Position numbers and translations under genes: made by a program
DNA from: an uncultured Clostridia bacterium
GTDB taxonomy: Bacteria; Bacillota; Clostridia; Christensenellales; CAG-917
Assembly (NCBI GenBank): GCA_944360115.1
Contig: CALVTH010000010.1
Location: 1 to 42,801, forward strand
Direction of reading: 5' to 3'
Length of the DNA stretch: 42,801 nt
The notes under the pieces: generated by a model
Seen by the model: only the letters and a program-made list of their open reading frames with translations
Database searches by the model: none
Told to the model about the DNA's origin: nothing
Part shown: piece after piece, positions 22,913-42,801 of the stretch
Layout of the letters: each line of letters starts with the position of its first letter
How positions within the stretch are numbered: position 1 is the stretch's first letter

Positions 22913-22915
22913 ACC

Positions 22916-25895: not shown

Positions 25896-25916
25896 CGTTT
25901 TGTCTTTACGCTGATA

Positions 25917-26186
25917 TCACGCCTTCTTGAGTTTGTCGAGAGAGCGGCAGACGGTCGCCTTTTTGCGGGCGGCGGTGTTGGCGTGGAAAACGCCGTCGGA
26001 CGCGGCTCTGTCGATGATGGAGACGGTCTCGGGGAGAAGCTGTTCGGCAAGAGCGACATCGCCGGCTTCGATTGCGGCGTTGAACTTCTTGATGGCGTTC
26101 CTCACGCGGGACTTCTTTGCGACATTCTCCGCGTTCCTTCTCTTGGAAACCAGAACTCTCTTTTTGGCGGACTTGATGTTGGGCAT
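25917..26186 (-). CDS. rpsT: Small-subunit ribosomal protein S20
   Basis: 89 aa, the normal S20 size, starting MPNIKSAKKRVLVSKRRNAENV, with the long basic helices and the ASDGVFHANTAARKKA segment that defines the family. It binds 16S rRNA. ATG 26186 has GGAG in front at good spacing. Longer in-frame starts lie across the promoter. The gene stands alone between a strong promoter and a strong terminator and is divergent from gpr, a pairing common in Clostridia. Confidence 0.98.
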   Translation of the reverse strand: MPNIKSAKKRVLVSKRRNAENVAKKSRVRNAIKKFNAAIEAGDVALAEQLLPETVSIIDRAASDGVFHANTAARKKATVCRSLDKLKKA

Positions 26187-26229
26187 ATTTATTTCTCCTG
26201 TATTTCGTCTTGTAGTCGAATGCTTAGAC

Positions 26230-26258
26230 ATATTACCACACCGCAAAATTTGTTGCAA
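26230..26258 (-). promoter_or_regulatory. Promoter of rpsT
   Basis: On the minus strand TTGCAA (26258-26253), a 17-nt spacer and TAATAT (26235-26230), giving a leader of about 37 nt. Confidence 0.78.
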
Positions 26259-26269
26259 GCGTTTGGCAT

Positions 26270-26294
26270 TGTTTTTTCGCGCGACGGGATAATA
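26270..26294 (+). promoter_or_regulatory. Possible sporulation-type (sigma-G-like) promoter of gpr
   Basis: A GCATT element and, 17 nt later, GATAATA (26288-26294) resemble the -35 GHATR and -10 CATNHTA boxes of forespore promoters. The -10 box ends 5 nt before ATG 26300 and no SD is seen. The match is imperfect, and the region is too AT-rich to be sure. Confidence 0.35.
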
Positions 26295-26299
26295 AATTT

Positions 26300-27169: not shown

Positions 27170-27236
27170 CCGCATAAGGGGCGAGGGGTGCGGCGTCGCA
27201 CGGGAAATAAAACTGTATCAAAAGCAAAATACTGCG

Positions 27237-28148
27237 TTAGATTGCGGAAAACGCCGTTTTTTCGGCGTAAGTTTTCAGCAGATGCAGCAGCAGCCACCTG
27301 TATTTTTTATCCTCTCTTTCTCCCGTGAAACGGAACTTCACGCGGTACACCTCCGCCGCATATTCCTCGTCGTCGCGGCAACCCTGCGGGGCGTATTTTT
27401 CCGCCGTGCGGCCAGGGTCGGCATACGGGAGGGCGAAGCCCGAGGGCGCGGACCGCTGCGGCTCCGCAAAGGCTTTCTCGGACGGGTGTGCGTCGGAAAC
27501 GCGGCTTTCTGTCAAGTGTGCGGCGGACGGGGCGGAAGCAGACAGACTGGCCTCCACCTCTTTCACCACGGCGGCGTTGCCGTCGCTCAGAGGAGCGGAA
27601 GGATACATCGCCGCAATCTGGTCGGACATGTATATGTAATGAGAGCAGCCGAGCACCACGCGTTTCACGCCCTCGCGGGGCAGTTTCTCTGATAGATAGC
27701 CGCACAGCCCCGACATATCGGGTCTCAGGCGGCTTTTGGCTTTGAGCGAGGCGGTGATTTCCACAAGCACGGCAAGTTCGCGCGTGTCGGCGGTGAGGAA
27801 GCCCTTTTCCTTCGCGCCGAGTCCCGCAAGCGTGAGAGGAGTGGCAAGCACCAGCGTTTCGGACGGCGAAAAGCCGTCGAGTCGCGGGTGCAGTTTGAAC
27901 ACTCCCGCGGGGTCGGCGGTCACCGAAGCCGTGTTGCAACCCAGCACTATGCGGGTACATTCGCCGCTCATCGTCGCAACGGCGGCGTTTACGACGCGCT
28001 TCACCTCGTCGGGGGATTTGGTACCGAAAGGCATACGGGCGTTGTCGGCGTAGTAGAGGAAGTCGCATTGCGGGAATTTCCGCATAAGGACGGAGAGGGT
28101 GGTCAGCCCTCCTATGCCGCTGTCGTACACGCCGATTGTGGTTGCCAT
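27237..28148 (-). CDS. murI: Glutamate racemase MurI
   Basis: 303 aa, making D-glutamate for peptidoglycan. The family motifs are YDSGIGGLTTL (Asp9-Ser10), YYADNARMPFGTKS, the first catalytic Cys71 in VLGCNTAS, and the second Cys168 with His170 in VLGCSHYIYMSDQI. After about residue 200, where most MurI proteins nearly end, there is an Ala/Ser/Pro-rich stretch of some 55 residues, then a basic C-terminal helix. This explains the extra 30-40 aa compared with usual enzymes. No clear SD precedes ATG 28148. Confidence 0.92.
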   Translation of the reverse strand: MATTIGVYDSGIGGLTTLSVLMRKFPQCDFLYYADNARMPFGTKSPDEVKRVVNAAVATMSGECTRIVLGCNTASVTADPAGVFKLHPRLDGFSPSETLVLATPLTLAGLGAKEKGFLTADTRELAVLVEITASLKAKSRLRPDMSGLCGYLSEKLPREGVKRVVLGCSHYIYMSDQIAAMYPSAPLSDGNAAVVKEVEASLSASAPSAAHLTESRVSDAHPSEKAFAEPQRSAPSGFALPYADPGRTAEKYAPQGCRDDEEYAAEVYRVKFRFTGEREDKKYRWLLLHLLKTYAEKTAFSAI

Positions 28149-28235
28149 ACAAACAGATTTATGCCGCTCGGCGCCCGCTTATCACACCCCAAACGGAAAA
28201 AATGCGTCACGCGCGGAATATTGCGCTTTTTTTGC

Positions 28236-28264
28236 TTGATTAGTCTTTCAATTTATAGTATCAT
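28236..28264 (+). promoter_or_regulatory. Promoter of the EF-G-like gene
   Basis: TTGATT (28236-28241), a 17-nt spacer and TATCAT (28259-28264). The predicted start near 28271 leaves a leader of about 100 nt. Confidence 0.75.
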
Positions 28265-28372
28265 TTATTGGAATTTCGCTCCGTGCGCATTTCCCGACGG
28301 GAGAGGGCGGGGCGGCGGCGTTTGCCGTCGCGGCGGGGCGCGGACAACCGTAAATCAATCACGAGGTATATT

Positions 28373-30436
28373 ATGAAGACTTTTGCAACCGATTTCATAC
28401 GCAACATCGCGCTCATCGGGCACTCCGGCGAAGGCAAAACCTCTCTCGCCGAAGCAATGCTTTTCGAAGCAAAATCCATCGACCGTCTCGGCAAGGTCGA
28501 CGACGGCTCTTCCACGATGGACTTCGACGACGAGGAGATCAAGCGTAAAATATCCATCAGCATGGCTCTTGCCAGCGCCGTGCACAAGGGCGTGAAAATC
28601 AACATTCTCGATGTCCCCGGTTTCTTCGACTTCGAAGGCGAAATGGTGGCGGCTCTCTCCGCCGCCGACAGCGCGATAGTCGTGACCAGCGCGTCCGGCT
28701 CCCTCACCGTCGGCACCGAGAAAGCCCTCGAAATGTGCCTCGAAAAGGGCGTTCCCGCTTTCATATTCGTCAACGCCGTCAACAAGGAAAACTCCGACTT
28801 CATGTCCACCGTCGACGCCATTACCGCGCGTTACGGCAAGGTCGTCCCCGTCGAACTTCCCATTATGGAAGGCGGCAAGATGACCGGTTATGTGGATGTG
28901 TTCACGGGCGCGGCGTACACCCTTGACGGAAAGAGCGTCGATGTCCCCGCCGCACTCAAGGCGAAAGCCGACGATTACCGCGGCAAACTCATGGAAATGG
29001 TCGCCGAGACCGACGAGGAACTGATGATGAAGTTCTTCGAGGGCGAGGAGTTCACCGCCGAGGAAATCAACCGCGGCGTGCACGCGGCAATCGCGGGCGA
29101 CACTTTCATCCCCCTCATGGCGGGCAACGCCACCACCTGCACCCGCGTCGGCGGTCTCATGGACAAAATCGTCGATCTGCTTCCTTCTCCCGCGAAGGCG
29201 AAGAAAGCCAAGGCCACCAAGGACGGACAGGCCGTCGAAGTCGCTTGCGACGCTTCCGCGCCTTTCTCCGCGCAGGTGTTCAAGTCCATCGTCGACCCCT
29301 ATGTGGGCAAACTGCTCATTCTCAAAGTCAAGAGCGGCAAACTCCAGAGCGGCGACACCGTCTTCAACAACACCGCCGAGAAACCCGAGAAAATCGGCAC
29401 AATCTATGTGCTGAAAGGCAAGAAACAGGAGCCCGTCGATTTCCTCGAAGCCGGCGACATCGGCGCGCTTGCGAAGCTTGTCTACACCAACACCAACGAC
29501 ACGCTGTCCGCTCCCGAGAACAAACTCGTGTTCGACAAGATCGAATTCCCCGCGCCCGTCATCTCCTACGCGGTCAAAGCCGCCAAGGACGAGGAAAAAG
29601 TCATTCAGGGTCTTATCAAAATGCAGGACGAGGACGCCACTTTCAAGGTGGAGAAGAATGTCGAAACGGGCGATGTGCTCATCAGCGGTCTCGGCGAAGC
29701 GCAGCTTGACATAATGTGCAAGCGCGTCAAGAACAAACTCGGTCTCGACATCTCGTGGCAGGAACCCCGCGTGGCGTACCGCGAGACCATAAGAAAGACC
29801 GCCGAAGCCGAAGGCAAACACAAGAAGCAGTCGGGCGGTGCGGGTCAGTACGGCGATGTGTTCATCAAGTTCGAGCCGGGCGCCGAGGACGGCGAATTCG
29901 AGTTCGTCGACGCCATAGTCGGCGGCGCGGTGCCCCGTCAGTTCATTCCCGCGGTCGAAAAGGGTCTGCGTGAAGCCATCAAGAAGGGCGTGCTCGCGGG
30001 CTATCCCATGGTCAACATCAAAGCCACGCTCTACGACGGAAAATATCACCCCGTCGACAGCAAGGAAATCGCGTTCATCACCGCCGCCAAGTTGTCCTAT
30101 CAGGAAGGCTGCGCCAAGGCGGCTCCCTGCTTCCTCGAACCCATTATGGAAGCCAAAATCACCGTTCCCGACGAATACCTCGGCGACATTCTCGGCGACA
30201 TGAACAAACGCCGCGGCAGAATCCTCGGCACCGATGTCGTCGCGGGCGGCAAACAGGTCATCACGGCGGAAGTTCCTCAGGCGGAAATGTTCCGTTACGC
30301 CACCGACCTCCGCAGCATGACCCAGGGCAGGGGCAAGTTCTCCATGACCCTCATCCGTTACGACGAGGTTCCCGCCAGCGCCAACGCCAAGATTATCGAG
30401 GACGCCAAGAAGCGCGAGGAAGAGTCCAAGAAGTAA
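28373..30436 (+). CDS. EF-G-like translational GTPase with altered G motifs
   Basis: 687 aa with the complete EF-G domain order: a GTPase domain to about 265, then domains II-V (SGGAGQYGDVFIKFEPG marks domain IV, and the C-terminal GDMNKRRGRILGTD marks domain V). It belongs to the EF-G-like paralogue group, not main FusA. G1 is GHSGEGKT (16-23). G3 is DVPGFFDF (80-87), where EF-G has DTPGHVDF, so the catalytic His is Phe. G4 is NAVN (134-137) in FVNAVNKEN, where EF-G-type proteins have NKMDREN, so the Lys and Asp that select guanine are changed. The role of these paralogues is unknown. ATG 28373 follows ACGAGGT, and the ORF upstream of it covers the promoter. Confidence 0.9.
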   Translation: MKTFATDFIRNIALIGHSGEGKTSLAEAMLFEAKSIDRLGKVDDGSSTMDFDDEEIKRKISISMALASAVHKGVKINILDVPGFFDFEGEMVAALSAADSAIVVTSASGSLTVGTEKALEMCLEKGVPAFIFVNAVNKENSDFMSTVDAITARYGKVVPVELPIMEGGKMTGYVDVFTGAAYTLDGKSVDVPAALKAKADDYRGKLMEMVAETDEELMMKFFEGEEFTAEEINRGVHAAIAGDTFIPLMAGNATTCTRVGGLMDKIVDLLPSPAKAKKAKATKDGQAVEVACDASAPFSAQVFKSIVDPYVGKLLILKVKSGKLQSGDTVFNNTAEKPEKIGTIYVLKGKKQEPVDFLEAGDIGALAKLVYTNTNDTLSAPENKLVFDKIEFPAPVISYAVKAAKDEEKVIQGLIKMQDEDATFKVEKNVETGDVLISGLGEAQLDIMCKRVKNKLGLDISWQEPRVAYRETIRKTAEAEGKHKKQSGGAGQYGDVFIKFEPGAEDGEFEFVDAIVGGAVPRQFIPAVEKGLREAIKKGVLAGYPMVNIKATLYDGKYHPVDSKEIAFITAAKLSYQEGCAKAAPCFLEPIMEAKITVPDEYLGDILGDMNKRRGRILGTDVVAGGKQVITAEVPQAEMFRYATDLRSMTQGRGKFSMTLIRYDEVPASANAKIIEDAKKREEESKK

Positions 30437-30461
30437 TCCTCGAACATTCGCAAAAGTCGTT

Positions 30462-30492
30462 AAGCCCCGCCCGAAAGAGCGGGGCTTTTTTT
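30462..30492 (+). terminator. Terminator of the EF-G-like gene
   Basis: A perfect 9-bp stem AAGCCCCGC / GCGGGGCTT with an 8-nt loop, followed by TTTTTTT. Confidence 0.92.
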
Positions 30493-30770
30493 GCCCTGCG
30501 CACATTGCAGGACGCGCGGAGGTTACGACCGAAGGGGAAGAAGGTGACGAAGCAAGCGACGGAGGCGGCGCAAACGGTACGGCGGAGACTGCGGCGAACG
30601 GCGCGACGAGGGTGCGGATTATGGCGCGACGAGGGGAATGGCAAACGGCAGCGCAAAAGGTGCGGCGACGAGAACAGATGGGGAGAGAGACGAGGGGAAG
30701 ATAAGTGGAAGTCTGCGTCGTAAGAAGCGGGCGGACGGGGCGGAAAATGTGACGGCGGAGCTACAAACGA
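30493..30770. other. Purine-rich intergenic stretch without a supported gene
   Basis: About 280 bp between two convergent terminators. The plus strand is strongly A+G rich and poor in T. Short open frames exist, for instance 30505-30723, but they are highly basic, lack an SD and resemble no protein. I call no gene here. Confidence 0.6.
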
Positions 30771-30810
30771 AAACGCGCAAACGCGGGTTGAGATGTGCGT
30801 TTGCGCGTTT
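30771..30810 (-). terminator. Terminator of the pyridoxal-kinase-like gene
   Basis: A perfect 14-bp dyad AAACGCGCAAACGC / GCGTTTGCGCGTTT with a 12-nt loop and T/A tracts on both sides. Confidence 0.88.
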
Positions 30811-30841
30811 TAATGTCGCGTTTGTGCCTTATCTGCGAAAG

Positions 30842-31666
30842 TCAGCGTTTGTCCACCAGCATGGGGACGGCGCGTTCGATGAGCAGCCCGAAGCGCAGGT
30901 CGGTCTTTTCTTTGAGGGAGACTTCTATGCAGGCTTTGCAGAAATCGACGGCGCACTGAGCCGCGCGCTCGAAGCTCATTCCCGCCATGAGTTTGCCTAT
31001 GAAAGCAGATGACAGACAGTCGCCCGCACCGTGAATGTACGCCTCGAAGTTGGTGTTGTACTGGAAGGCGATTTTGCCGCCCGCGAGGGTCGCCGTGCCT
31101 TGCACTCCGTCGCCCGTCACTCCCGACAGCAACACGCGCTTGTAGCCCTTGTGGCGGAGTATGTTGAGAATCATCCGCGCGTTGGCTTCGTTGGGTTCCA
31201 GCGACATATCGAGGTCGGCAAGCATACGCCCTTCGGTGAAGTTGGGCATGACGATGTCGGCAATCCTGCAAAGCTCGAACATTCTGTCGCGGTAGGCGTT
31301 GTCGAAAATCTTGTACAGCGAGCCGTTTTCCGCCATGGCGGGGTCGACGGCAATCACCGCGCCGCGCGCTTTCATGTCCGTGGCAATCTTTATCGCCGCG
31401 TCGACGGTCTCCATGGAGCCGAGAAAGCCCGTGTAAAGGCAGTCGAAGGATATGCCGAGTTTGTTCCAATGCTCGTAGGAGGGCAGCATATTTAAAGCAA
31501 GGTCTGTATAGGTAAAACCTTCGATGCCGTAAGTCTGCGTGGAAAGCAGGGCGGTGGGAAGTCCCACGGCGTCGTGCCCGCAGGCGCAGAGAATGGGAAG
31601 CGCGGCGGTGAGCGAACATCTGCCCACCGAAGAGTAGTCCTGTATGGTGAGAATTCGTTTGTTCAT
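30842..31666 (-). CDS. pdxY: Pyridoxal/pyridoxamine kinase-like protein (ribokinase superfamily)
   Basis: 274 aa from ATG 31666. It begins KRILTIQDYSSVGRCSLTAA, the usual start of PdxK/PdxY-like kinases, then has LPTALLSTQTYGIEGFT, YTGFLGS, VIAVDPAMAENGSLY, and the anion-hole/catalytic-base segment HGAGDCLSSAFIGKL (GxGD with the catalytic Asp). It should phosphorylate vitamin B6 aldehydes or amines, though related kinases act on hydroxymethylpyrimidine, so specificity is not certain. In-frame Met codons at 31675 and 31702 lie inside the promoter, which leaves 31666 as the start, with no SD. Confidence 0.85.
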   Translation of the reverse strand: MNKRILTIQDYSSVGRCSLTAALPILCACGHDAVGLPTALLSTQTYGIEGFTYTDLALNMLPSYEHWNKLGISFDCLYTGFLGSMETVDAAIKIATDMKARGAVIAVDPAMAENGSLYKIFDNAYRDRMFELCRIADIVMPNFTEGRMLADLDMSLEPNEANARMILNILRHKGYKRVLLSGVTGDGVQGTATLAGGKIAFQYNTNFEAYIHGAGDCLSSAFIGKLMAGMSFERAAQCAVDFCKACIEVSLKEKTDLRFGLLIERAVPMLVDKR

Positions 31667-31673
31667 AGCAACC

Positions 31674-31702
31674 ATTTTATCACCGCGGCACGGCGTTTTC
31701 AA
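31674..31702 (-). promoter_or_regulatory. Promoter of the pyridoxal-kinase-like gene
   Basis: On the minus strand TTGAAA (31702-31697), a 17-nt spacer and TAAAAT (31679-31674). ATG 31666 comes 7 nt later, so the mRNA should begin at or one base before the start codon. Confidence 0.75.
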
Positions 31703-31802
31703 GGGGCGCGGGAAAATCGGCGCACTATTATCCTATTATCTTCGGCGCGGGCACGCACGCGGGGGCGCGTCCGCGACTCCCGCGCGGGGAAACAAATTTG
31801 AG

Positions 31803-31831
31803 TTGCAAAACGGCGTGCCTTGTGCTACACT
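31803..31831 (+). promoter_or_regulatory. Promoter of the SRP RNA gene
   Basis: TTGCAA (31803-31808), a 17-nt spacer and TACACT (31826-31831). Predicted +1 at 31837-31838 matches the start of the terminal helix of the RNA. Confidence 0.85.
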
Positions 31832-31836
31832 ACAAA

Positions 31837-32104
31837 GGCTACGCTAGACGGGGAGCCGGCGGTGCCCTGTGAACTGCAATCCGCCATAGCAGTGTCGAAC
31901 GCCGACCGAGGCCTTTCTTATGGTTGGCCGCACCGTACAAGGAGCGTTGATAGCAAGGTCCCGTGCAACATTATGCTGTGAACCGTGTCAGGGCTTGACC
32001 GCAGCAGCACTAAGCAGATGTTAATGTGTGCCACGGGGAAACTTTGAAGGAGCCACCTATACGGTTACCGCTTCGGTTTGAATTGTCGGAGTCGGTGCGT
32101 AGTA
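31837..32104 (+). ncRNA. ffs: Signal recognition particle RNA, large bacterial type
   Basis: About 268 nt. The 5' part has the Alu-domain consensus of Gram-positive SRP RNAs (GCTAGACGGGGAG, then GGCGGTGCCCTGTGAA, CAATCCGCCATAGCAG and GACCGAGGCC). The 3' third is the Ffh-binding domain IV: GCTGTGAACCGTGTCAGG, then AGCAGCACTAAGCAG and GTGTGCCACGG. CTACGC (31839-31844) pairs with GCGTAG (32097-32102) to close the molecule. The apical loop region reads GCTTGACCGC where most bacteria have TCCGGAAGGA, so the GGAA tetraloop is absent and a UGAC (URRC-like) loop is likely. Confidence 0.94.
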
Positions 32105-32139
32105 AACCCGAACGCCGCAAGTGCGGCGTTCGGGTTTTT
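32104..32139 (+). terminator. Terminator of the SRP RNA gene
   Basis: A perfect 15-bp stem AAACCCGAACGCCGC / GCGGCGTTCGGGTTT with loop AAGT and a T-run to 32139. Confidence 0.93.
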
Positions 32140-32262
32140 CTGTGCCTTTCGGCGGTTTTCGTGTCTGTTGCGATAATGCCGCGCGGGTCTGGGCGGGGCG
32201 TCGCGCTCGGGTGCGGCAAAGCGTCGGGAAGGGGAGTCCGTCGGCGGTCGGTTGCCCGAGGG

Positions 32263-33912
32263 TTATTTCCTTATCTTCTTGACCGTGGCGGAGCGGCGCA
32301 CGATGCGCGTTGCCACTTCGGCGTTTTCCGTCGGCGCGGCGGGCGCTTCGCTCAGGCACATATTCTGCATTTCGTTGCAGAAGGAGTTGATGAGCGCCTC
32401 GCTGGCGTTTTTCTTGGCGAGCATACTGAAGGACAGATTGTCCGCCTGCGGCACGACCATGGTGAATTCCTTGGTGTATTTGTCCATATCGTCGATGCCA
32501 TCGAAGCCCGTTTCGAGCACGGTCTTGTATTTGTTTTCGGGGGTGACGGTCTGGGTGATGATGGCGAATTTGTCGAATTCCTTGACCTTGGTGCCCGAAA
32601 GGACGGTGCTCCTGAGCGCGAGGACATCGTAGCCGTAGTGTTCGAGGGGCTGGGTGTCGCGGAGTATGTCGGCGCGCACCTGCTGCCACTTGGAAATCTT
32701 GTAGGACTCGGATATGAGCCACTTGATGACATTGCCCGGCAGGTTGCGCAGGTTGTTGAACATATACCAGAACGGACCTATCGGGAAGGTGCTGTCCTCG
32801 AGCGACTTGTAGATGATGTTGAGTTTGTAGGCGGCGTCGGGATAGACCTTGACGGACACCTTGAAGCCGTTGTGGTCGTCGTTTTCCTTGACGATGAGAA
32901 TGGTCTTGGTCTTGTATTTGTACACCCAGTTGAGAGTGCCGCGTTTCTTTATGCAGTAGACGCCGTCGAGGGAAGCGGTGTAGTCGATGACCTCTTCCAT
33001 TGTCATGGTCTTTTCCTTGTGGGGGAGCAGGACGAGGTTCTCGAACTCGGCGTTGCCGACCATGTTCATCTTGATGATGTCCATATCCGACGCGCCGAAC
33101 TCTTCGAGAGTGGGAACGACGGCGGAATATTTCTTGACGACGGCGTACACTTCGCCGTCACGCAGACGCACCGACCCGTAATAATTGGTGTTTACGGAGC
33201 CGGGCAACACATTCTCGTCCTCTTCGAGGGGCTGAATGTTGTCGTCGGCGGATATGTACTGCATCATGAGCGACGCATTGTCGGAGGAAATGGCTGCGAT
33301 GACGGGAGCGGCGATTTCCGTCTTCTCGTCCTTTTTCTCGTATTTCTTGGCGCCGCGGGGAGAGACGAGGAAATAGACCAGCGCGGCGATGACCGACAGC
33401 ACCATGAAGATGACGGTGAGCAGCACCATCATGACGGGGTCGTCGATTATCGCAAGGACGAAAGAGGAGTCGACGGATTTCTCGTAGACGCCGAGCAGAC
33501 GGGAGGAATCGTCGACGGTGCCGTCGGTGAAAGTGACCTCGTTGCCGCTGACGGAAGTGACCGTTTTGAGACAGACGGCGGGAGTCGCGTCTTTGTCGAG
33601 GAAGACATAGCCGACCACATCGCCCGCCTTGAAAGAGGAGGTTTCTCTTATGATCGCGCCCTCTTTCTGCACCAGCCCGGTGACGGGATTGGTGACTTCC
33701 ACGGTGTATTTGCCGTTGTTGTAGAAAAATCCGCCGTGAGCGTTTGCCGTGGCGGCGAAATAGACCGTCACTATGCTGATCGCGAAAGCCACCGCGACGA
33801 GGACGATGAGGACGATTCTCACCGTATTGGCAATTGCGGGGTCGCGCAAGCCGTAGGCTATCTCGAGGCTCTTGGATTTTTTCTTTTCGCTATTGTTCTT
33901 TTTGTCTGCCAT
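32263..33912 (-). CDS. Two-helix membrane protein of unknown function
   Basis: 549 aa from ATG 33912. The first 28 residues are charged and cytosolic. Membrane helices lie near 32-55 (VRIVLIVLVAVAFAISIVTV) and 157-182 (VMMVLLTVIFMVLSVIAALV). The extracytoplasmic loop between them reads GDVVGYVFLDKDATPAVCLKT, somewhat like the S26 signal peptidase beta fold, but no Ser-Lys dyad can be seen. The remaining 365 residues are a soluble cytosolic domain with no motif that I recognise. It is transcribed away from the pilus-like operon, sharing a 255-bp divergent region with it. A link to the pilus is only positional. Confidence 0.7.
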   Translation of the reverse strand: MADKKNNSEKKKSKSLEIAYGLRDPAIANTVRIVLIVLVAVAFAISIVTVYFAATANAHGGFFYNNGKYTVEVTNPVTGLVQKEGAIIRETSSFKAGDVVGYVFLDKDATPAVCLKTVTSVSGNEVTFTDGTVDDSSRLLGVYEKSVDSSFVLAIIDDPVMMVLLTVIFMVLSVIAALVYFLVSPRGAKKYEKKDEKTEIAAPVIAAISSDNASLMMQYISADDNIQPLEEDENVLPGSVNTNYYGSVRLRDGEVYAVVKKYSAVVPTLEEFGASDMDIIKMNMVGNAEFENLVLLPHKEKTMTMEEVIDYTASLDGVYCIKKRGTLNWVYKYKTKTILIVKENDDHNGFKVSVKVYPDAAYKLNIIYKSLEDSTFPIGPFWYMFNNLRNLPGNVIKWLISESYKISKWQQVRADILRDTQPLEHYGYDVLALRSTVLSGTKVKEFDKFAIITQTVTPENKYKTVLETGFDGIDDMDKYTKEFTMVVPQADNLSFSMLAKKNASEALINSFCNEMQNMCLSEAPAAPTENAEVATRIVRRSATVKKIRK

Positions 33913-33937
33913 AAATCCCACACTCAAACGGAAATAC

Positions 33938-33990
33938 GACCGCGCGTGACGGTCACAATTTACAATAGATTAAAATCCACTTTTTGTCAA
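33938..33990 (-). promoter_or_regulatory. Promoter and dyad upstream of the two-helix membrane protein
   Basis: On the minus strand TTGACA (33990-33985), a 17-nt AT-rich spacer and TATTGT (33967-33962). Around the predicted +1 (near 33955) lie two overlapping inverted repeats, GTGACGGTCAC (33946-33956) and GACCG/CGGTC (33938-33954), possible operator or leader hairpin. Confidence 0.75.
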
Positions 33991-34114
33991 TCGCCGCACG
34001 AAAACAGTCGGGTTGCATAAAAAGATAGCCGCACCGTTGCGTTGATAACGCCACTGTTATGCGGAGATTACGGCGGGAAAGGTTAAAAGGGCGGTTTTTG
34101 CGAAAAGGTGTTTA

Positions 34115-34143
34115 TTGCCAAAAGGTGTACGGCGTGGTACAAT
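34115..34143 (+). promoter_or_regulatory. Promoter of the pilus-like operon
   Basis: TTGCCA (34115-34120), a 17-nt spacer and TACAAT (34138-34143). Predicted +1 near 34150, with a very strong GGAGGAGGAG SD right after it. Confidence 0.8.
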
Positions 34144-34167
34144 TACCATGTGTGAGGAGGAGGAGTT

Positions 34168-35367
34168 TTGCAGAAGTACAGTTATAAGGCGTACGACTCC
34201 CTCGGCAAGGCCGTCAAGGGGACCATTGTCGCGTCGGACGACAAGAATTTCCGCGACCTTTTGCATGAGCAGGGTATGCGGTGTTACGAGTACCGCGTCG
34301 TAAACAAAGCCAAGCAGGTCAAAAGCAAACCTCTCAAAATCGGCGAACTCATCGCGTTCAGCCGTCAGTTGTCCTCTATGTTGTCTTCGGGTCTCGACCT
34401 CAGCCTCAGCCTCAAGATGCTGTATGAGCGCACCGAGAAAAACAAGAAAAATCTCAAACTCGTCGAGGCGCGCCTTTTCGAGGAAATCCAGAAGGGCGAA
34501 TCGCTGGCGTCGGCGATGCAGAATCTCGACAACACTTTCCCCTCCCTTTACATCAGCATGGTGAAGTCCGGCGAACTCAACGGCAAAATCGACGAGTCGC
34601 TGATAACCCTTGCCGACTATTTCGAAAAAGAGCACAAACAGCGCAACCAGATAAAGAGCGCCATGAGTTATCCCATCATCCTGCTCGTCATCTGCGCCCT
34701 CGTCGTCGTGCTGATGTCCGTCGTCGTGCTTCCGCGAATGGCGGATATGATACCCGAAGGCACGGCGATGCCGTTGCCCACGCAGATTTTGCTGGGATTG
34801 AAGGATTTCGTCGTCAATCAATGGTTCGTGGTGCTGATGGTCATATTCGCGCTGGTGGTGTGCGTGCCCATCATAAAGCGCATACCTGCGGTTTCCATTT
34901 TCACGGGCAAGTTCGCCACGCGTATTCCCGTCATCGGCAAACTGCGCAAGATGCTTTACACGGCAACCTTCGCGCGATCGCTTTCCACGCTGTATTCCAC
35001 GGGTATTCCGCTCCTCGACGCCATATCCATGAGCGGCGAGATCCTGAACAACAAATTCATTGAGATGCAGGTGAGGGAGGCCGTCATTTCCATAAGGAAG
35101 GGCAGCTCCATAGCCGAGGCGTTTTCCGTCGTCACATCCTTCGACACAATGCTCATGACGATGATTTTCGTCGGCGAGCAGTCGGGCACTCTCGACGACA
35201 TTCTCATTCAGACGGCGCGTTATTTCGAGGAGGAGGCACAGGGAGCTCTCAAACGCCTCATCTCTCTCATTTCGCCCGTCATGCTCATGATAATGGCGGT
35301 GGTCATCGGCTTCGTGCTCATCGCGGTCATGATGCCCATGCTTACGCTGTACCAGTCAATCGGTTGA
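34168..35367 (+). CDS. pilC: Type IV pilus / type II secretion inner-membrane platform protein PilC (GspF)
   Basis: 399 aa with two tandem GspF modules. The N-terminal MQKYSYKAYDSLGKAVKGTI is typical, followed by FSRQLSSMLSSGLDLSLSLKML, then a helix near 172-192, another near 220-240, the second module FARSLSTLYSTGIPLLDAI, and a final helix near 370-390. It forms the membrane platform on which pilin subunits are added. The start is TTG 34168, placed 4 nt after a long GGAGGAGGAG. The only nearby ATG (34148) is in another frame. No PilB or PilT ATPase is encoded next to it, so the motor must be elsewhere or beyond the window. Confidence 0.95.
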   Translation: MQKYSYKAYDSLGKAVKGTIVASDDKNFRDLLHEQGMRCYEYRVVNKAKQVKSKPLKIGELIAFSRQLSSMLSSGLDLSLSLKMLYERTEKNKKNLKLVEARLFEEIQKGESLASAMQNLDNTFPSLYISMVKSGELNGKIDESLITLADYFEKEHKQRNQIKSAMSYPIILLVICALVVVLMSVVVLPRMADMIPEGTAMPLPTQILLGLKDFVVNQWFVVLMVIFALVVCVPIIKRIPAVSIFTGKFATRIPVIGKLRKMLYTATFARSLSTLYSTGIPLLDAISMSGEILNNKFIEMQVREAVISIRKGSSIAEAFSVVTSFDTMLMTMIFVGEQSGTLDDILIQTARYFEEEAQGALKRLISLISPVMLMIMAVVIGFVLIAVMMPMLTLYQSIG

Positions 35368-35379
35368 CAAGGAGGAGTT

Positions 35380-36294
35380 ATGTACATTCTGCACATAAGC
35401 GGGGATACGGTCAAGATTCTGGAAGGCGCCGTCGCGCGGCGTAAAATCGTCGTGAACAGCCTTTATTCCGTCGCCATGCCCAGCGATTATCTCGACAATC
35501 CCGACGAAAAAGGCTACGAAAAACTCGAAGCCGTCGTCACCAACGGTCTCCGCGACCTCGGCGAGGATTTCAAGAACAAGAAAATCCGCATCGTGCTCGA
35601 CAACATCAACATTCCTTTCAGGGAAATGCTGGTGCCCACGCTCAACCGCAAAAAGACCATTCCGCTCATCAAGAACGAGATTTTCAGCGACGAGAAACTG
35701 GCAAACGGCAACACCGTCGATTACATCGAACTCGAAAAGAAGGTGGACGGTCAGAAGCAGACGCGCATCATGGTCACTTATGTCGACAACATCATCCTTG
35801 CCGATGTCCAGAAACTTTGCAAAAACCTCATGTTCAAGCTGCAATCCATCGACATAGGGCAGAACTGCACGGCGAAGATGTTGCGTTACACCGCGGACTC
35901 TCTTCCCGACAGTTATGTGTTCGCCGAATTGCGCGACAGCGTGGTCATGATAAGCCTCGTCATCGACAGGTCGTTCAAATACTGTATGTCAAAGAGCGTC
36001 ATCTCTCTCGAATCCATGCGGTTCAAGAGCGAGCGCACCTATTTCGTCAACGACATCGGCAACACTCTGCGAAGCGCGCTCGAACAGTTCAGGAAACTCT
36101 ATCCCGATTTCGATTGCAAGAGCGTCGTCATCGCGGGCACGGCGGAGAAATTCGAACTGTTGCGCAAGCCCGTCGCCGAAAAACTCGGCGTCAGCGTGCA
36201 GGCGCTCGTCGCTCCCGAAAATGTGGACAGCGTGTCGGACGAGGATTACAACGAATTTTTCTGCACCATAGGCGGACTTATAAGGGAGGGATAA
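35380..36294 (+). CDS. pilM: PilM-like actin-fold pilus assembly protein
   Basis: 304 aa, second in the operon, 12 nt after pilC with SD AGGAGG. The beginning MYILHISGDTVKILEGAV fits the first beta strands of the actin-like fold. VRIVLDNINIPFREMLVPTL-like strands follow, and the end (SVVIAGTAEKFELLRKPVAEKLGV) matches the second ATP-site lobe. Sequence similarity to PilM is low and the assignment relies on fold pattern, size and position before PilN- and PilO-like genes. PilM is cytosolic and binds the PilN tail. The N-terminal INL motif expected in the partner is present in the next gene (RDINLL). Confidence 0.75.
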   Translation: MYILHISGDTVKILEGAVARRKIVVNSLYSVAMPSDYLDNPDEKGYEKLEAVVTNGLRDLGEDFKNKKIRIVLDNINIPFREMLVPTLNRKKTIPLIKNEIFSDEKLANGNTVDYIELEKKVDGQKQTRIMVTYVDNIILADVQKLCKNLMFKLQSIDIGQNCTAKMLRYTADSLPDSYVFAELRDSVVMISLVIDRSFKYCMSKSVISLESMRFKSERTYFVNDIGNTLRSALEQFRKLYPDFDCKSVVIAGTAEKFELLRKPVAEKLGVSVQALVAPENVDSVSDEDYNEFFCTIGGLIREG

Positions 36295-36295
36295 T

Positions 36296-37000
36296 ATGCT
36301 GCGCAGAGACATCAACCTGCTATACAGCCTCACGCAGGCGACAAAGAAGAAGAGCTCGTCCAATCTGATGCTCGTTCTCGTCGTCGGCGTGGTGCTTATC
36401 GTCGGACTTATGACCTTCCTTTTCGTCGACGCAAAAATGACGGTAGAGAAAAACCAGTCCGTCATCGACGACCTCGACGCGAAACTCGGACAGACTTCCG
36501 TGCTCGCCCAGAAACAGAAAGAGTACAACGAACTCAAAACGGCGTATCAGAACGCCACCGTTTCGGCGATTGCGGAGCTCGCTCCGCAACAGTACGCGTA
36601 TGCCGGCGCGAAGATGAGCAAGACGCTCATCGACGTGCTCATGCTCACCGACGACGCAGGGACGCCCGTGTTCAAGGTGGACATAACGCAGCTAATAATA
36701 TCCGGCAACAGCATTACGTTGCAGTGCAGTTCGAAGACCGGAACGGACGCGGACTACGACTGCTACGACAAGGCGTGGGATTTCGTGGATTATCTCGCGG
36801 GCAACGCGCTTGCGGACGACAATCCTCTCGCCGCCACCGTGGTCGGCGGCGTTGCGATCAACGATCTTGTGCTCAAAAACGCGGACTATTTCACGGGGGT
36901 TGAGGACAATTATTCCGGTTTGCAGGCAAAGCCGGACAATCCGGAGGAGAGCATATCCTTCAATGTAAAATTCTCCGTCAACTGGGAGGCGCTGCAATGA
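36296..37000 (+). CDS. pilN: PilN-like pilus assembly protein
   Basis: 234 aa. The short cytosolic N terminus has RDINLLYSL, matching the INLLP-type motif by which PilN docks in PilM. A membrane helix (LMLVLVVGVVLIVGLMTFLF, about 24-43), a coiled-coil segment (about 48-85) and an outer alpha/beta domain follow, as in PilN. It starts 1 nt after the pilM stop and its own stop overlaps the pilO start (ATGA). The first ACGT of the whole window occurs in this gene at 36633, and later genes contain many. Confidence 0.82.
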   Translation: MLRRDINLLYSLTQATKKKSSSNLMLVLVVGVVLIVGLMTFLFVDAKMTVEKNQSVIDDLDAKLGQTSVLAQKQKEYNELKTAYQNATVSAIAELAPQQYAYAGAKMSKTLIDVLMLTDDAGTPVFKVDITQLIISGNSITLQCSSKTGTDADYDCYDKAWDFVDYLAGNALADDNPLAATVVGGVAINDLVLKNADYFTGVEDNYSGLQAKPDNPEESISFNVKFSVNWEALQ

Positions 37001-37950
37001 CATTCACGACAAGAGACAAGATATTGCTCGGCGTTCTCGCAGTCATACTCTTCGTGGGTATGATGTATCTCTACGGCGTCATGCCCGCCAACGAAGAGGC
37101 GGACAAGCTTGCCTCCGACGCCACCAAGAAGCAGCAGGAGCTCAACGAACTTCTTGCAAAAATAGCCGCGATAAACATCGACGCGCTGGATGACGAGTAC
37201 GACGAACTGCTGGACTACTATTACACGACGAAGGAGTCGCTGGAAGGCGTTGCCAAGCTGCCCGAAGAAGTGGAGATAATCGCCCTCGAAAGAAAAATCG
37301 TCAAATTGCTCGACGACAACGGAATCAAGGGTTACAGCACCACGAGCTGGAAGATAAACAGACAACAGCAGACGGCGTCCTATGACGGAGAAAGCGTCAT
37401 GTACGAAATCGTTCAGGCGGTTTGCCCCGTCCCCTTCAAAGTGGCGCCGGAAGTGTTCCACGATTTCATCGGAGCCGTTCACGACAACGAGTTTTACAGC
37501 ATTTCGGACCTGTCGGTGACTTATTCCGTCGAGACTCATACCACCACGGACGAGGGCGGCAACGACGTTACCACGACCGAGAAGTTCGCGGAAGGCAATT
37601 TCACCCTCAATTATTTCATGGCGGCGAGAACGGAGCAGGCAAATCTGCCGAAACTGCTCCCCGAAGTTACCGGGCTTGCGGCGGACGGAGCCACATTGAA
37701 GTTCAACACCGTGGACAACGCCGTGGGTTACGAGTTCTACACCGTGTCGGCGAGCGGCACCGTCACCGCCGTGCCTTACCTGTACGTCAAGGACAACGGA
37801 GAGGCGACGCTGAGCGTCAAGTTCTCCTCGAATTATCTGACGGCGGGCGTGCACACCGTTGCCGTTCGCGCGGTCGGCGACAAAGCGGAAGGTTACTTCA
37901 AGTCGCCCTTGCCCGACAAAAACACCGAGACTGTGCTTGTTACGGTGTAA
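36997..37950 (+). CDS. pilO: PilO-like pilus assembly protein with extra C-terminal domain
   Basis: 317 aa. A membrane helix at 9-28 (ILLGVLAVILFVGMMYLYGV) is followed by a coiled coil (about 31-90) and a ferredoxin-like domain, the PilO layout. PilO proteins are usually about 200-220 aa. Here residues 225-317 add a beta-rich, Fn3-like module (VTGLAADGATLKFNTVDNAV through YEFYTVSASG). That part would lie outside the membrane. The start overlaps pilN by 4 nt, so the two are translated together, as expected for partners of a heterodimer. Confidence 0.8.
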   Translation: MTFTTRDKILLGVLAVILFVGMMYLYGVMPANEEADKLASDATKKQQELNELLAKIAAINIDALDDEYDELLDYYYTTKESLEGVAKLPEEVEIIALERKIVKLLDDNGIKGYSTTSWKINRQQQTASYDGESVMYEIVQAVCPVPFKVAPEVFHDFIGAVHDNEFYSISDLSVTYSVETHTTTDEGGNDVTTTEKFAEGNFTLNYFMAARTEQANLPKLLPEVTGLAADGATLKFNTVDNAVGYEFYTVSASGTVTAVPYLYVKDNGEATLSVKFSSNYLTAGVHTVAVRAVGDKAEGYFKSPLPDKNTETVLVTV

Positions 37951-38035
37951 TGCGCATAAAAAAAGATAACGCGAACAAACCGACGGCATAAAAACCGTTT
38001 TGCGTCAAAAGACGCTCCGTAAGAGCGGAGGCAAA

Positions 38036-41000
38036 ATGAAAGCGCGACGTAAGAAAAGAGCCTTTTACAGAAAAGGAGCATCACTGGCAATGGTGCTGGT
38101 TTCCATAACCATTCTTACGATAATGGGAACGCTCTTCACCGCCATAGCAATGCGCTCCTACGAGTATTCTTACGCCAAACTGTGCAAGCAGCAGGCGTAC
38201 TACACCGCGCGGTCGGGCATAAGCGCCTTTTACAGTATGCTCAAAAGCGAGACGGGGTTGCTCGACAGCATGACACGCGACCTCGACGCGTTGTGTTTTG
38301 CAAGCGCCGCCACTTATTCGGACGACGATTTCGACATTACGACCGTAAGACTCGAAGTGGGCTCGGCGGGAGGCGGTACGTCCGACGGATTGATTTCGGG
38401 CGGATTCTTCGACACTTTCCTCGGCGATTGCAAGCTTTACGTACGCTACGCAAACAAGGAGCGCAGTCAAATAAGCATAGAGGCGCACTCCACTTACAAC
38501 GGTTATGCCGAGAGCGCGCGCGCCATCATAGCGCGCACGAACAAGGCCTCGTCCGAGCTGAAAAAAATCTTCGACAACACTTTCTGTCTGCAATCTCCCA
38601 TCACCACAATCGTCACCGACGGAATCGACGGCGACGTGTATGTCTCTCAGCCCGCGCCTTATCTTTACGACGAAGACGGCAACTGGATTGAGGAAGGAGT
38701 CGAGGGCGTTTACAACAAAGTTCTCGAAAGCCTTAAAAAGACTTCGAGCTACGGTGCATACACGGAAGTGACTGCCGGACAGTACATAAGAGACAATAAC
38801 GGAAATGTGGTCACGGACGAGAGCACCGATGTGGGCAAGTACAACAATGTTCTTCGGAAGATAGTGTACGCGAATGTTCAGGCGAGCACGGAGGACGCTG
38901 ATAAAATCGGTCACACCAAGCCGCTCTCGATGGAAAACACCCCGATAACGGACAGAAATTCCGAAGGCCAGACATACTACAACGATTGGGTCGAACTGTA
39001 TATGTTTTCGGCCGTTCAGGGCGACACCACCGTGGACGGCAATCTCTATGCACATTCCCGCATACTTCTCGGTCTCGTGGACAAGGACAGGAGCGGCAGA
39101 CAGTATATCAGTTACTGGGACGAGTCGCTTAAGAGGGAAGTTTATCCCAACCGCGCGTCCTGGTATCAGGTTACGAGCAATCTTTTCCCCGAATACGGTC
39201 TGGAAGGCGGCGGCGAAGGGAGCGTGAAAGATTACGAACACGGTTTCGACGTCGATGTTTTCTTCGACCACACAAGAACGGAGGCGGTGCTCGATGTTTC
39301 CGTCTCGAAATTCCGCATCAACGGCAATATGTATTTCTGGGATGATGTCCGTATAGAGAATATGGACAGCACCCAGACGGAAAACGCGCTGAACGGCGTG
39401 AAGAACAACATTTATGCCAAGCAGAATCTGTACATAGACGGCTTCCATATCGACAGTTGGAGCAGTATCATGGCTTACGCCACCATGTCCACATCCAAGC
39501 AGGTCTCCGTTTACGGCGATGTGTTCATCGGCGAAAATGCTTTTATCAGGGGAGCCAATATCTACGGGGACATTTATTGCTACGGCGAAGAACTGACGCT
39601 GGTCGACACCAATGTCTACGGTAACATCTATTTTGCGGGGTCCAAATTCACTGCCGACCGCGTCACGGTTTCGAGCGGCAGTCTGTCGGTGAGTTATAAC
39701 GGCTTAAACATCACGCAAAATTTGTCCGGCGGCAACGTCGTCATAGCGGGCACCAAGGGCAGCAGCAATTATTCCACCTACAACAGCAAGGCGGGCTTCG
39801 GCACTACTGCCGACACGGGCAACAACGCCGCTTCGCAGTGGGGAGCCACTCTCATTGATTGCAACATCTACGGCAATCTTTGGTCGGATGTCAATACTCA
39901 CATAGTGTCCGCAAAGAGCCAGGCGGGGCTGGGCGTGACTCCGCCTCACCCGCAGACGGGATACAGCGAATACGGCAATATCTATGCCACGAAGTATCTT
40001 TACATCGACCTCATAATGCCGCGAAGTATCGGCGACGGCTGGACGCAGACCGACAAATATCCGTTCATAGAGAACTGGGTGAGCGGGGTTGACCTCAACT
40101 ACGCTTACGCCACCGAAAACAACAGAATAGTGGTCAACGGCATGGTTTACGCCGAGCGTTTTCAGATGAAAACCAACCAGTCCAAGGTCCGAAATCTTGC
40201 CGAAAGCCAGCTCAACACCGTTTGCGTGGGCCGCGGAGGTCTGTACATAGACGGCTGCGAAGAATCGAGGCTGATTTCTCCGCAGAAGTGGAATATAAGC
40301 ATATCCAACGGACTGTATTCGCTGTCCTCGGGAGCGTGTTACAACACAAGAATTAACGGGTCGCTCGTCGACACGGGAAGTTTTTCCGCCAACGCCTCGG
40401 AATCCGACATTATCAACAGACTCGACAGCAGCCGTTATTCAATAGACGACGCGCTCGAATCGGTGCATTACAGCGTGCTGAATTCGATGGGGACGACCGC
40501 GACGCAACTCGACGTGTTATACGAGACCACGTTCGGCTCGACAGAAGTCTGGAAGGATAAGGTCATCACACTGTATTCGTGGAGCGCGCCCACACAGTAC
40601 GACGCGGACGACCCCGACGCAAACAATCCCGAAAGAACCATCGACTATGCCCGCGTCGTCGAAGGCAAGAACGAAAGGGGATTCAGAGACATCGACGAAT
40701 ACATCGATTATCTTCGCAGCGCGGAATCCGGCGGAAAAGCAGGGAGCGTCGATGGAACCACGCTTACCATCACCCAAAGCGCCTGGTTCTCGGGGCACGC
40801 CGACTTTTCGGCATTCGACAGGGTGGTTATCGACACCACGAAGGGCAATATCCACATCAAATTCAGCGGCGGCGCAACATTCGGAGCCCCCACCGCGACT
40901 TCCTTTGAAACGGGAAGCGACGTCATTCTGAAAGGCGGAAATCTCACGTTCTGGTATCTGTATGAGCCTGAGGGCTACGACATGAATTCGCCGACGCTTT

Positions 41001-41452
41001 CCGTCAACCCTTATACACAGCTGGGGCTCATACAGCAGGGGACGGGGGCGACTTACAGTTTTGACGGTCTGTACATTATCTCCAACGACGACTGTCTTAT
41101 ACAGTTCGCCAACGATGTGAGTCTGAACGGATTCGTTTATGCGCCGTATTCGCACCTGCTCCTGAAACCCGGCAGCTCGGGCACGCTCAACACCCTCAAC
41201 GGTTGCATGGCGATAGAGAGCCTTATTCTCACCAGCGACGGCGACACCCTCGGTTTCTGGGACGACTTGTTTGCGGGCATAACATGGACGCCGCAGAAGA
41301 TAATCGACGAAGTCGTCGGGCAATACGAGAACAGCCATTACGACTATGTAATGCCGCCTCTCATCATGGACGCGACTTTCCAGTACGGCGACGCCGTGGC
41401 GGAGCTCGAAAACTTCAACGAAGTCGTGTGGGAGTTCATGGGGTACTACTGA
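38036..41452 (+). CDS. Giant PilX-like minor pilin fused to a beta-helix-like ectodomain
   Basis: 1138 aa from ATG 38036 (GGAGG SD, 5 nt before). The basic head (1-13) and helix KGASLAMVLVSITILTIMGT (13-32) with the following KLCKQQAYYTARSGISAFY resemble the PilX/GspK type of minor pilin, which lacks the usual GFTLxE. Known ones are about 150-350 aa. From about residue 470 a run of short turns such as VYGDVFIGENAF, IYGDIYCYG, VYGNIYFAG and IYGNLW suggests a beta-helix, like bactofilin or autotransporter passengers. The C-terminal 250 residues hold further strand repeats (SFDGLYIISNDDCLIQFA). The likely place is the pilus tip or surface, and adhesion is an inference. Its stop overlaps the next prepilin. 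Confidence 0.72.
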   Translation: MKARRKKRAFYRKGASLAMVLVSITILTIMGTLFTAIAMRSYEYSYAKLCKQQAYYTARSGISAFYSMLKSETGLLDSMTRDLDALCFASAATYSDDDFDITTVRLEVGSAGGGTSDGLISGGFFDTFLGDCKLYVRYANKERSQISIEAHSTYNGYAESARAIIARTNKASSELKKIFDNTFCLQSPITTIVTDGIDGDVYVSQPAPYLYDEDGNWIEEGVEGVYNKVLESLKKTSSYGAYTEVTAGQYIRDNNGNVVTDESTDVGKYNNVLRKIVYANVQASTEDADKIGHTKPLSMENTPITDRNSEGQTYYNDWVELYMFSAVQGDTTVDGNLYAHSRILLGLVDKDRSGRQYISYWDESLKREVYPNRASWYQVTSNLFPEYGLEGGGEGSVKDYEHGFDVDVFFDHTRTEAVLDVSVSKFRINGNMYFWDDVRIENMDSTQTENALNGVKNNIYAKQNLYIDGFHIDSWSSIMAYATMSTSKQVSVYGDVFIGENAFIRGANIYGDIYCYGEELTLVDTNVYGNIYFAGSKFTADRVTVSSGSLSVSYNGLNITQNLSGGNVVIAGTKGSSNYSTYNSKAGFGTTADTGNNAASQWGATLIDCNIYGNLWSDVNTHIVSAKSQAGLGVTPPHPQTGYSEYGNIYATKYLYIDLIMPRSIGDGWTQTDKYPFIENWVSGVDLNYAYATENNRIVVNGMVYAERFQMKTNQSKVRNLAESQLNTVCVGRGGLYIDGCEESRLISPQKWNISISNGLYSLSSGACYNTRINGSLVDTGSFSANASESDIINRLDSSRYSIDDALESVHYSVLNSMGTTATQLDVLYETTFGSTEVWKDKVITLYSWSAPTQYDADDPDANNPERTIDYARVVEGKNERGFRDIDEYIDYLRSAESGGKAGSVDGTTLTITQSAWFSGHADFSAFDRVVIDTTKGNIHIKFSGGATFGAPTATSFETGSDVILKGGNLTFWYLYEPEGYDMNSPTLSVNPYTQLGLIQQGTGATYSFDGLYIISNDDCLIQFANDVSLNGFVYAPYSHLLLKPGSSGTLNTLNGCMAIESLILTSDGDTLGFWDDLFAGITWTPQKIIDEVVGQYENSHYDYVMPPLIMDATFQYGDAVAELENFNEVVWEFMGYY

Positions 41453-41847
41453 TGAGAGCGGTTTTCCGGACAAAACAATCCCGCAAAAGGGGATTCACTC
41501 TCGTTGAGGCGATTGTAAGCATCGGGATTTTCGCAATCGCGGCGGTTATGATCGCAATGATCCTTTTCACCGCCACGAATATGGTGCAGATGTCCCTCGT
41601 GTACGACTCCGACAGAGAAAAGCTTTCCGAGGCGGCGGCGCTTTCGTCCAGCACGCGCGTCGATCCCGACGACCCGAGCAGCGGGCTAATAGTGTCGCTC
41701 GATGTCAAAGTCGCGGGTAAGGACGTCGTGGAAAAATTCGTCATAGACCTCACCGACGGCAATACTCTGGTTGAGGTCGAAGGCAGATATTTCGAGTACA
41801 CCGTGCAATCGACAAAAAGAAAGTATTACATTTTCGTCAGCGATTGA
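41452..41847 (+). CDS. Type IV prepilin-like protein (GFTLVE)
   Basis: 131 aa. A short basic leader (MRAVFRTKQSRKR) is followed by the processing site G-FTLVEAIVSIGIFAIAAV, with Glu at +5, and a single helix. The prepilin peptidase should cut after the Gly. The globular part is only about 90 residues, with few Cys and a beta-rich C terminus, like a minor pilin or pseudopilin. ATG 41452 overlaps the stop of the upstream gene (TGATG), so the three pilin-type genes are translated as a unit. Confidence 0.88.
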   Translation: MRAVFRTKQSRKRGFTLVEAIVSIGIFAIAAVMIAMILFTATNMVQMSLVYDSDREKLSEAAALSSSTRVDPDDPSSGLIVSLDVKVAGKDVVEKFVIDLTDGNTLVEVEGRYFEYTVQSTKRKYYIFVSD

Positions 41848-41854
41848 GGCAGAT

Positions 41855-42511
41855 ATGTTGTTGAGGAAGTTTCGCAAACACAAAAGCGGATTCACGCTTG
41901 CCGAATTGCTAGTTGCGCTCGTAATACTCGGCATACTTTCCCTTTGCGTCTACCTCATAACGCAGGCGGCGAGTTTCACCTTTTCCAAAGGGCAGGAAGT
42001 GATAAGTGCCGACGACGTAAAAGACATTATTATCGAATATCTGAAACAGGAACTCAAAACCAGCACTTCCGTATATCTCACCGACGACCTCGTCGCCGAC
42101 GGCGCGCAGTATTTGAAAAAAGGGAATTTGCTGTTCTCCTCGGAGGTCGACGGCAGGCTTTATTTTCTGTCGAGCGACGTTGACGGAACGCTCAATCTGT
42201 CCTACACCCAAGACGGGACGATTGTCTTCCCGACCGACGCGAAACCGTACTTCGGCGAAGGAGCGAGCGACGCGGAAAAATATATATACGGCAATCATTG
42301 CATCAGAGTGGTTTTCAGTCCGCTCACCAATTCGGACGGCAAAAAGCAGGCCCTCAAAGTGACGGTGTCCGTTTATAAATCGATGAGTTCGACGACGGCG
42401 TCGGTCGAGGGGTCCGAGATCATTCAGCTCGTCAATATGGAACAGCAAAACGGGGAAATCACCGCTTCGACCGCTTTGACTTCCCCCGTGCGCTACTGTT
42501 TCTACGCATAA
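41855..42511 (+). CDS. Type IV prepilin-like protein (GFTLAE)
   Basis: 218 aa. Leader MLLRKFRKHKS, then G-FTLAELLVALVILGILSL with Glu at +5, then a long helix and a beta-rich head. The larger size and acidic head resemble PilW/GspJ-type minor pilins. It starts 7 nt after the previous stop with SD GAGGC, and the upstream in-frame Met at 41771 lies inside the previous gene and is rejected. The ORF ends 12 nt before the prepilin peptidase start. Confidence 0.88.
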   Translation: MLLRKFRKHKSGFTLAELLVALVILGILSLCVYLITQAASFTFSKGQEVISADDVKDIIIEYLKQELKTSTSVYLTDDLVADGAQYLKKGNLLFSSEVDGRLYFLSSDVDGTLNLSYTQDGTIVFPTDAKPYFGEGASDAEKYIYGNHCIRVVFSPLTNSDGKKQALKVTVSVYKSMSSTTASVEGSEIIQLVNMEQQNGEITASTALTSPVRYCFYA

Positions 42512-42523
42512 GGTGAGGGCGGT

Positions 42524-42801
42524 ATGGCGCTGGACGTGTGTCTGTATATCCTGAGCGCGCTTTGCGGGCTTGTTGCGGGCAGTTTTCTCAATGTTTGCAT
42601 ATACCGCCTGCCGCGCGGCGAGTTTTTCTCCAAAAGCCGTTCGTTTTGTCCCAATTGCAAGTCTCCAATAAAAGCCTACGACAATATTCCGGTGTTGAGT
42701 TACATCATTCTGCGCGGGAAGTGTCGCAGTTGCGGAGAACGGATTTCCCCGCGGTATCCTCTCGTAGAATTGTTGACCTGCGCGCTGTGGGTGGGCAATT
42801 A
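42524..42801 (+). CDS. pilD: Prepilin peptidase PilD (type A24), 5' part only
   Basis: The first 92 codons are seen before the window ends. MALDVCLYILSALCGLVAGS is the first membrane helix, followed by FLNVCIYRLPRGE, as in the family's GSFLNVxIYRLP. Two CxxC pairs follow (CPNCKSPI and CRSCGERI) that bind zinc, then SPRYPLVELLT, the segment before the first catalytic Asp loop, which lies past the edge. It cuts and methylates the prepilins encoded just upstream, and may do the same for the PilX-like protein. The SD is GAGGGCGG before ATG 42524. Confidence 0.93.
   Translation, partial: MALDVCLYILSALCGLVAGSFLNVCIYRLPRGEFFSKSRSFCPNCKSPIKAYDNIPVLSYIILRGKCRSCGERISPRYPLVELLTCALWVGN

Follow-up and report, generated by a model that had tools for sequence, protein, structure and literature searches.

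Avoidance of the word ACGT points to import of the distal part of a type IV pilus operon in a Candidatus Limadaptatus-type genome

The distal part of a type IV pilus operon at the end of the window, which is the whole of contig C10 (42,801 nucleotides) of a Candidatus Limadaptatus-type genome, was probably imported by recombination (probability roughly 0.78) from a close lineage of Limadaptatus in which the word ACGT is not avoided, the resident lineage having lost ACGT earlier, likely through a restriction-modification (R-M) system that has itself been lost. The boundary of the segment is compositional and sharp relative to the resident genome, with no ACGT site before it and 2.9 sites per kb after it. 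Most likely, the segment is one of about 58 pieces that were recently acquired from related or neighbouring organisms with no history of ACGT avoidance.

Avoidance of ACGT in the genome and its islands

The assembly of the source genome (G000) consists of 1,490,525 bases in 55 contigs and is 95% complete with a contamination estimate of 0. The genome counts cover nearly all of these bases, that is, all but contig C54 (2.9 kb) and a few kb at contig ends. A two-state model divides the genome into a core of 1.349 Mb, with 40 ACGT sites against 5091 expected (0.8%), and 58 islands that amount to 135.6 kb (9%), with 426 sites against 667 expected. The log-likelihood of this model is −1846, versus −2402 for a single rate. 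Thirty-six of the 58 islands are internal to contigs; any single small island of two or three sites is uncertain.

The avoidance is written into the choice of codons. In the 1055 core genes, 99.4% of the Asp, Asn, His, and Tyr codons preceding Val end in T (n = 3376), compared to 21% before other residues. Likewise, ACG accounts for 0.2% of Thr codons before T and 42% elsewhere, and CGT accounts for 0.1% of CGN codons after A and 22% elsewhere. As codon bias toward the forms that do not create ACGT is found in all three reading phases, the target is the DNA word itself, and synonymous codons serve to avoid it. The C-ending form before Val returns in island genes (49%) and in the distal pilus genes (45%).

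Among the 10 genomes of the genus, ACGT avoidance is found in only two, the source genome and its nearest named genome, Candidatus Limadaptatus stercoripullorum (G007). The hexamer GACGTC occurs 60 and 13 times in these two genomes, respectively, versus 816–1264 times in the other genus genomes. The idea that other genera of the family (g3, g6, and others) also avoid the word was considered and rejected, as low GACGTC counts there mostly reflect low GC; the observed/expected ratio (o/e) of ACGT, determined directly, is 0.87–1.05 in six low-GACGTC family genomes with at least 12 kb read, and three more had too little sequence. A different palindrome, GGCC, is strongly avoided throughout the genus (ten genomes, o/e of 0.03–0.27 in the stretches read), although no C5 methyltransferase was found in six of the ten.

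The islands of the source genome carry genes for BspA-type leucine-rich-repeat (LRR) proteins, glycoside hydrolases, transporters, a GerA germination protein, and a Type III R-M pair. One gene on contig C8 (C8:24095-45895), encoding a surface lipoprotein-like protein of 7267 aa, is free of ACGT over the first 7.4 kb but has 59 sites in the other 14.4 kb, and is a second case of an intragenic change in composition. As it contains no tandem or internal repeats, tandem amplification of a repeat with ACGT was rejected for this gene. For the island C13:300-9400, the best DNA matches, which span two adjacent genes, come from another family of the order; a core control of equal length matches its own genus best (172 genomes, G007 among them, were unscored in this control).

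The pilus operon and the position of the switch

The domains PF00482, PF00437 with PF05157, PF01478, and PF07963 are found in one cluster, which identifies a type IV pilus operon. The genes are ordered pilC, pilM, pilN, pilO, a large prepilin-like gene (pilX), two minor prepilin genes, pilD, pilB, and further prepilin genes (Table 1), and this order matches that of relatives. The operon extends beyond the window into contig C52, which is joined to C10 by a 77-bp overlap; an overlap of the same length links 15 other contig pairs. In C52, the remainder of pilD is followed by the gene for the PilB ATPase and then by prepilins (Peptidase_A24, T2SSE with MshEN, and N_methyl were found in this contig). 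Assembly breaks occur in the distal pilus genes of both avoiding species (the end of C48 and C38 in G007, C10/C52 in the source genome), which suggests that the region varied among strains in the sample.

Table 1. Features of the window related to the pilus operon and the ACGT switch
Feature	Position	Strand	Remarks
ACGT-free part of contig	1..36632	.	0 ACGT vs ~134 expected; same state as 91% of genome
pilC-like platform protein, 399 aa	34168..35367	+	ACGT-free; Pfam T2SSF; orthologues at same position in relatives
pilM-like protein, 304 aa	35380..36294	+	ACGT-free; operon position and orthologues; no Pfam match
Breakpoint, 90% interval	35420..36620	.	Posterior from two site densities
pilN-like protein, 234 aa	36296..37000	+	Named by position; aligned orthologues; no solid Pfam match
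ACGT-bearing segment	36633..42801	.	18 ACGT; right edge open
pilO-like protein, 317 aa	36997..37950	+	2 ACGT; weak Pfam T2SSM; genus orthologues
Large prepilin-like protein (pilX), 1138 aa	38036..41452	+	10 ACGT; GC3 0.69; genus orthologues at ~41-57% identity; no Pfam match
Minor prepilin 1	41452..41847	+	Pfam N_methyl
Minor prepilin 2	41846..42511	+	2 ACGT; GC3 0.66; Pfam N_methyl
Prepilin peptidase gene pilD, start	42524..42801	+	Rest in C52; joined reading frame

Based on trinucleotides, 133.9 ACGT sites are expected in positions 1–36,560 and 32.2 in positions 36,561–42,801. The observed sites all fall between positions 36,633 and 42,534 (o/e of 0.56), the first two (36,633 and 36,716) both being located in pilN. 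When the window is joined to C52, a model with two segments gains 39 log-likelihood units over a uniform rate. The preliminary description had noted that pilC, pilM, and the early part of pilN are without ACGT, that about three sites per kb follow, and that Asp-Val is then also encoded by GACGTC and GACGTG. These observations are borne out: the first 337 nt of pilN are free of ACGT, the density after the switch is as given above, and C is the final base of 19 of the 42 Asp, Asn, Tyr, and His codons that precede Val in the distal genes, compared to 21 of 3376 in the core. For reference, the pilM orthologues of non-avoiding relatives contain 5–8 ACGT. The absence of the word from pilC and pilM is real, but it is not special to these genes, as it spans the whole left 36.6 kb of the window and 91% of the genome.

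Two further points of that description need correcting. The placement of the switch inside pilN is unsupported, since the interval for the breakpoint spans ~35.4–36.62 kb and the posterior probability that it precedes pilN is ~0.4. Moreover, the ACGT-bearing feature had been taken to extend to the end of the window, whereas ACGT is present from pilN through the prepilins of C52, in which there are nine further sites, and the segment runs on to ~46.9 kb in joined coordinates.

Origin of the distal segment

Other avoided words also distinguish the islands, which were defined by ACGT alone. From core to islands, the o/e rises from 0.22 to 0.44 for GATC, from 0.27 to 0.67 for GATATC, from 0.06 to 0.33 for CATATG, from 0.11 to 0.17 for GGCC, and from 0.18 to 0.26 for CCGG; P values for the relaxation of these five palindromes run from 1e-17 to 2e-5 or below. 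GGCC reaches 0.29 (core 0.11) and CCGG 0.35 (core 0.18) in the distal pilus segment, while the proximal part (pilC/pilM) equals the core (0.11 and 0.19, respectively); no relaxation of GATC was seen in the distal segment (0.18). Four palindromes combined amount to 41 versus 23.9 distally (P = 9e-4) and to 10 versus 10.0 proximally, and 2.6–4.5% of core blocks are as high as the distal value. The relaxation in the distal segment supports a foreign origin without proving it.

The pilus loci of non-avoiding relatives have an ACGT o/e of 0.54–0.85, and that of G007 is at most 0.02, with no ACGT in its distal pilus genes. Because the value of the distal segment (0.56) lies within the range of the non-avoiding relatives, the segment looks like an ordinary locus of a non-avoiding Limadaptatus and not like a half-purged one. 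The codon usage of pilC and pilM versus pilN onward, a comparison proposed in the preliminary description, separates the two parts incompletely. GC3 is 0.75–0.77 from pilC to pilO and 0.63–0.72 from pilX to the prepilins, compared to 0.754 (sd 0.035) in core genes, so that pilN and pilO are native-like and GC3 is atypical only from pilX on. The low overall GC of the pilus region was rejected as a sign of import, as pilC and pilM are also low, yet have a normal GC3.

Gene trees, proposed for the same purpose, show no clear conflict between the proximal and distal genes. Four of the seven gene sets pair the source genome with G007, namely pilC+pilM (support 85/87), pilO (88/91), the minor pilins (96/95), and pilB (76/79). 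The trees of pilN, pilX, and pilD do not recover the pair, although the AU test does not reject it (p = 0.25, 0.11, and 0.10, respectively). The trees neither contradict an import nor reveal a donor. Since pilO, the minor pilins, and pilB are placed next to G007, any donor would be a close relative, and if the distal part was imported, it would have come from a lineage near the stem of G000 and G007. No donor of the segment was found in the collections searched, and a plasmid origin was rejected as the search returned no match. The step in protein divergence at pilM/pilN was also set aside as evidence of import because the same step occurs in all genus pairs.

The distal genes may not have arrived in a single event. 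The segment could itself be a mosaic, in which pilN–pilO and the genes from pilX onward were imported at different times or from different donors, a doubtful but conceivable history that agrees with the variation of GC3 along the segment and with the differing nearest relatives of its genes (G007 for pilO, minor pilin 2, and pilB, G002 for pilD, and none for pilN). However, the long branches have moderate support, a single history is compatible with every AU test, and ACGT is found throughout the segment.

It is very unlikely that the segment is native DNA in which fast-evolving distal genes re-created ACGT by mutation, with no import, after the avoidance had ceased. The genes from pilN to the minor pilins do evolve fast in every genus pair and several trees keep the segment with G007, but the same fast-evolving genes are without ACGT in G007, and pilB, a conserved gene of the segment, carries the word too. 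In addition, synonymous sites in the core are still at 0.8%, so a regain to 0.56 over that period would presuppose a local rate that is not plausible, and the other palindromes relax as well.

An assembly joint, by which C10 would fuse two organisms near pilM/pilN and the distal part and C52 would come from a second Limadaptatus species of the sample, had been raised in the preliminary description and is very unlikely: pilM is conserved enough for two species to share a short identical stretch and the contig breaks in both avoiding species suggest strain variation, but the reading frames are intact and the operon order is conserved across the joint, the 77-bp overlap links C10 to C52, the contamination estimate is 0, an intragenic switch also occurs in the giant C8 gene without repeats, and 36 other islands are flanked on both sides by ACGT-free DNA in one contig and would need two joints each.

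Import from a non-avoiding donor, which had been put forward for the genes from pilN to pilD, is accordingly kept as the best explanation, the segment being one of 58 islands and other avoided palindromes also relaxing in it, although the breakpoint need not be in pilN and the trees are without clear conflict.

Cause of the avoidance and its implications

Under an import by recombination, the lineage of the source genome and Ca. L. stercoripullorum would first have purged ACGT by synonymous changes, the purge itself being demonstrated. The purge was most likely driven by self-restriction through a Type II system recognising ACGT, which is now found in neither assembly. The mosaic of sites suggests that homologous recombination then replaced the distal operon, beginning around pilM/pilN and including pilD, pilB, and the prepilins, and the same import would have taken place at several dozen other places in the genome. 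The imported ACGT sites would persist because nothing purges them any more. The DNA could plausibly have entered by uptake via the pilus and ComEC, the latter being present in 10 of 10 genus genomes.

The avoidance of ACGT is likely due to a lost restriction system. While active, this system would have purged sites and hindered import, and after its loss foreign alleles would have accumulated unpurged. A profile search of G007 and of the source genome (95% complete, with C54 left out) found no C5 (PF00145) or D12 (PF02086) methyltransferases, and no plausible ACGT methyltransferase was found in either assembly. A search for PF02384 gave only a short match, in an ORF resembling a tRNA methyltransferase. 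The search turned up no related genome with an ACGT system; C5 methyltransferases of unassigned specificity are present in G001, G002, G005, and G008. An ACGT R-M system may lie within the missing 5% of the source genome or in C54.

A Type III R-M pair (Mod and Res) is located at C20:1563-5495, and its Mod is the sole PF01555 gene. As this region is an ACGT-bearing island of low GC, the only DNA methyltransferase found in the source genome looks like a recent arrival. Deamination of methylated C was rejected as the sole cause of the avoidance, as its products would be non-synonymous in phase A|CGT, yet that phase is equally avoided. It is improbable that the ACGT taboo is no trace of the cell's own Type II R-M system and is imposed without a DNA methyltransferase, for example by an unknown nuclease or a non-methyl DNA mark; if so, two species would be keeping their DNA nearly clear of one word through a mechanism not yet described, with ACGT left in recent imports only.

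Avoidance of a palindrome in host genomes without the matching R-M system has been interpreted as the mark of a system since lost (Rusinov et al., 2015, PMC4687349). The present case is alike in that a short palindrome is depleted genome-wide with no matching R-M system, and differs in being extreme (0.8% of expected in the core) and common to two related species. In Helicobacter pylori, the same word, which is the HpyCH4IV site, is strongly depleted, with an O/E of 0.05 in whole genomes and 0.11 in multilocus sequences (PMC3849833). In that species, the R-M repertoire is known and the expectation was derived from G+C only, whereas the ratio here is 0.008 in the core and near normal in the islands. 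Underrepresented oligomers, which are linked to restriction sites, change fast and expose foreign genes (PMC3497702). The idea is the same here, but that method is statistical and draws on many words, whereas in the present genome a single word of four letters is enough to locate breakpoints to ~1 kb.

Surface-exposed genes of type IV pilus loci are exchanged by homologous recombination (allelic replacement) within an otherwise conserved operon. The present locus resembles such cases in that surface-exposed pilus genes would have been swapped within a conserved operon, and differs in that the exchange is deduced from site avoidance and not from a comparison of strains.

Avoidance, the traces that lost R-M systems leave, and the detection of transfer by rare words are already known. 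What is new is the strength of the avoidance and the resulting map of imports, in which the pilus operon is one clear entry. In this gut bacterium, ACGT has been removed from ~91% of the DNA and is near normal in the other 9%, which yields a map of recent imports with edges to ~1 kb. The map also works for imports from close relatives that gene trees miss, and it reveals the kinds of genes that were exchanged, including parts of the type IV pilus, giant surface proteins, LRR proteins, glycoside hydrolases, and a Type III restriction system.
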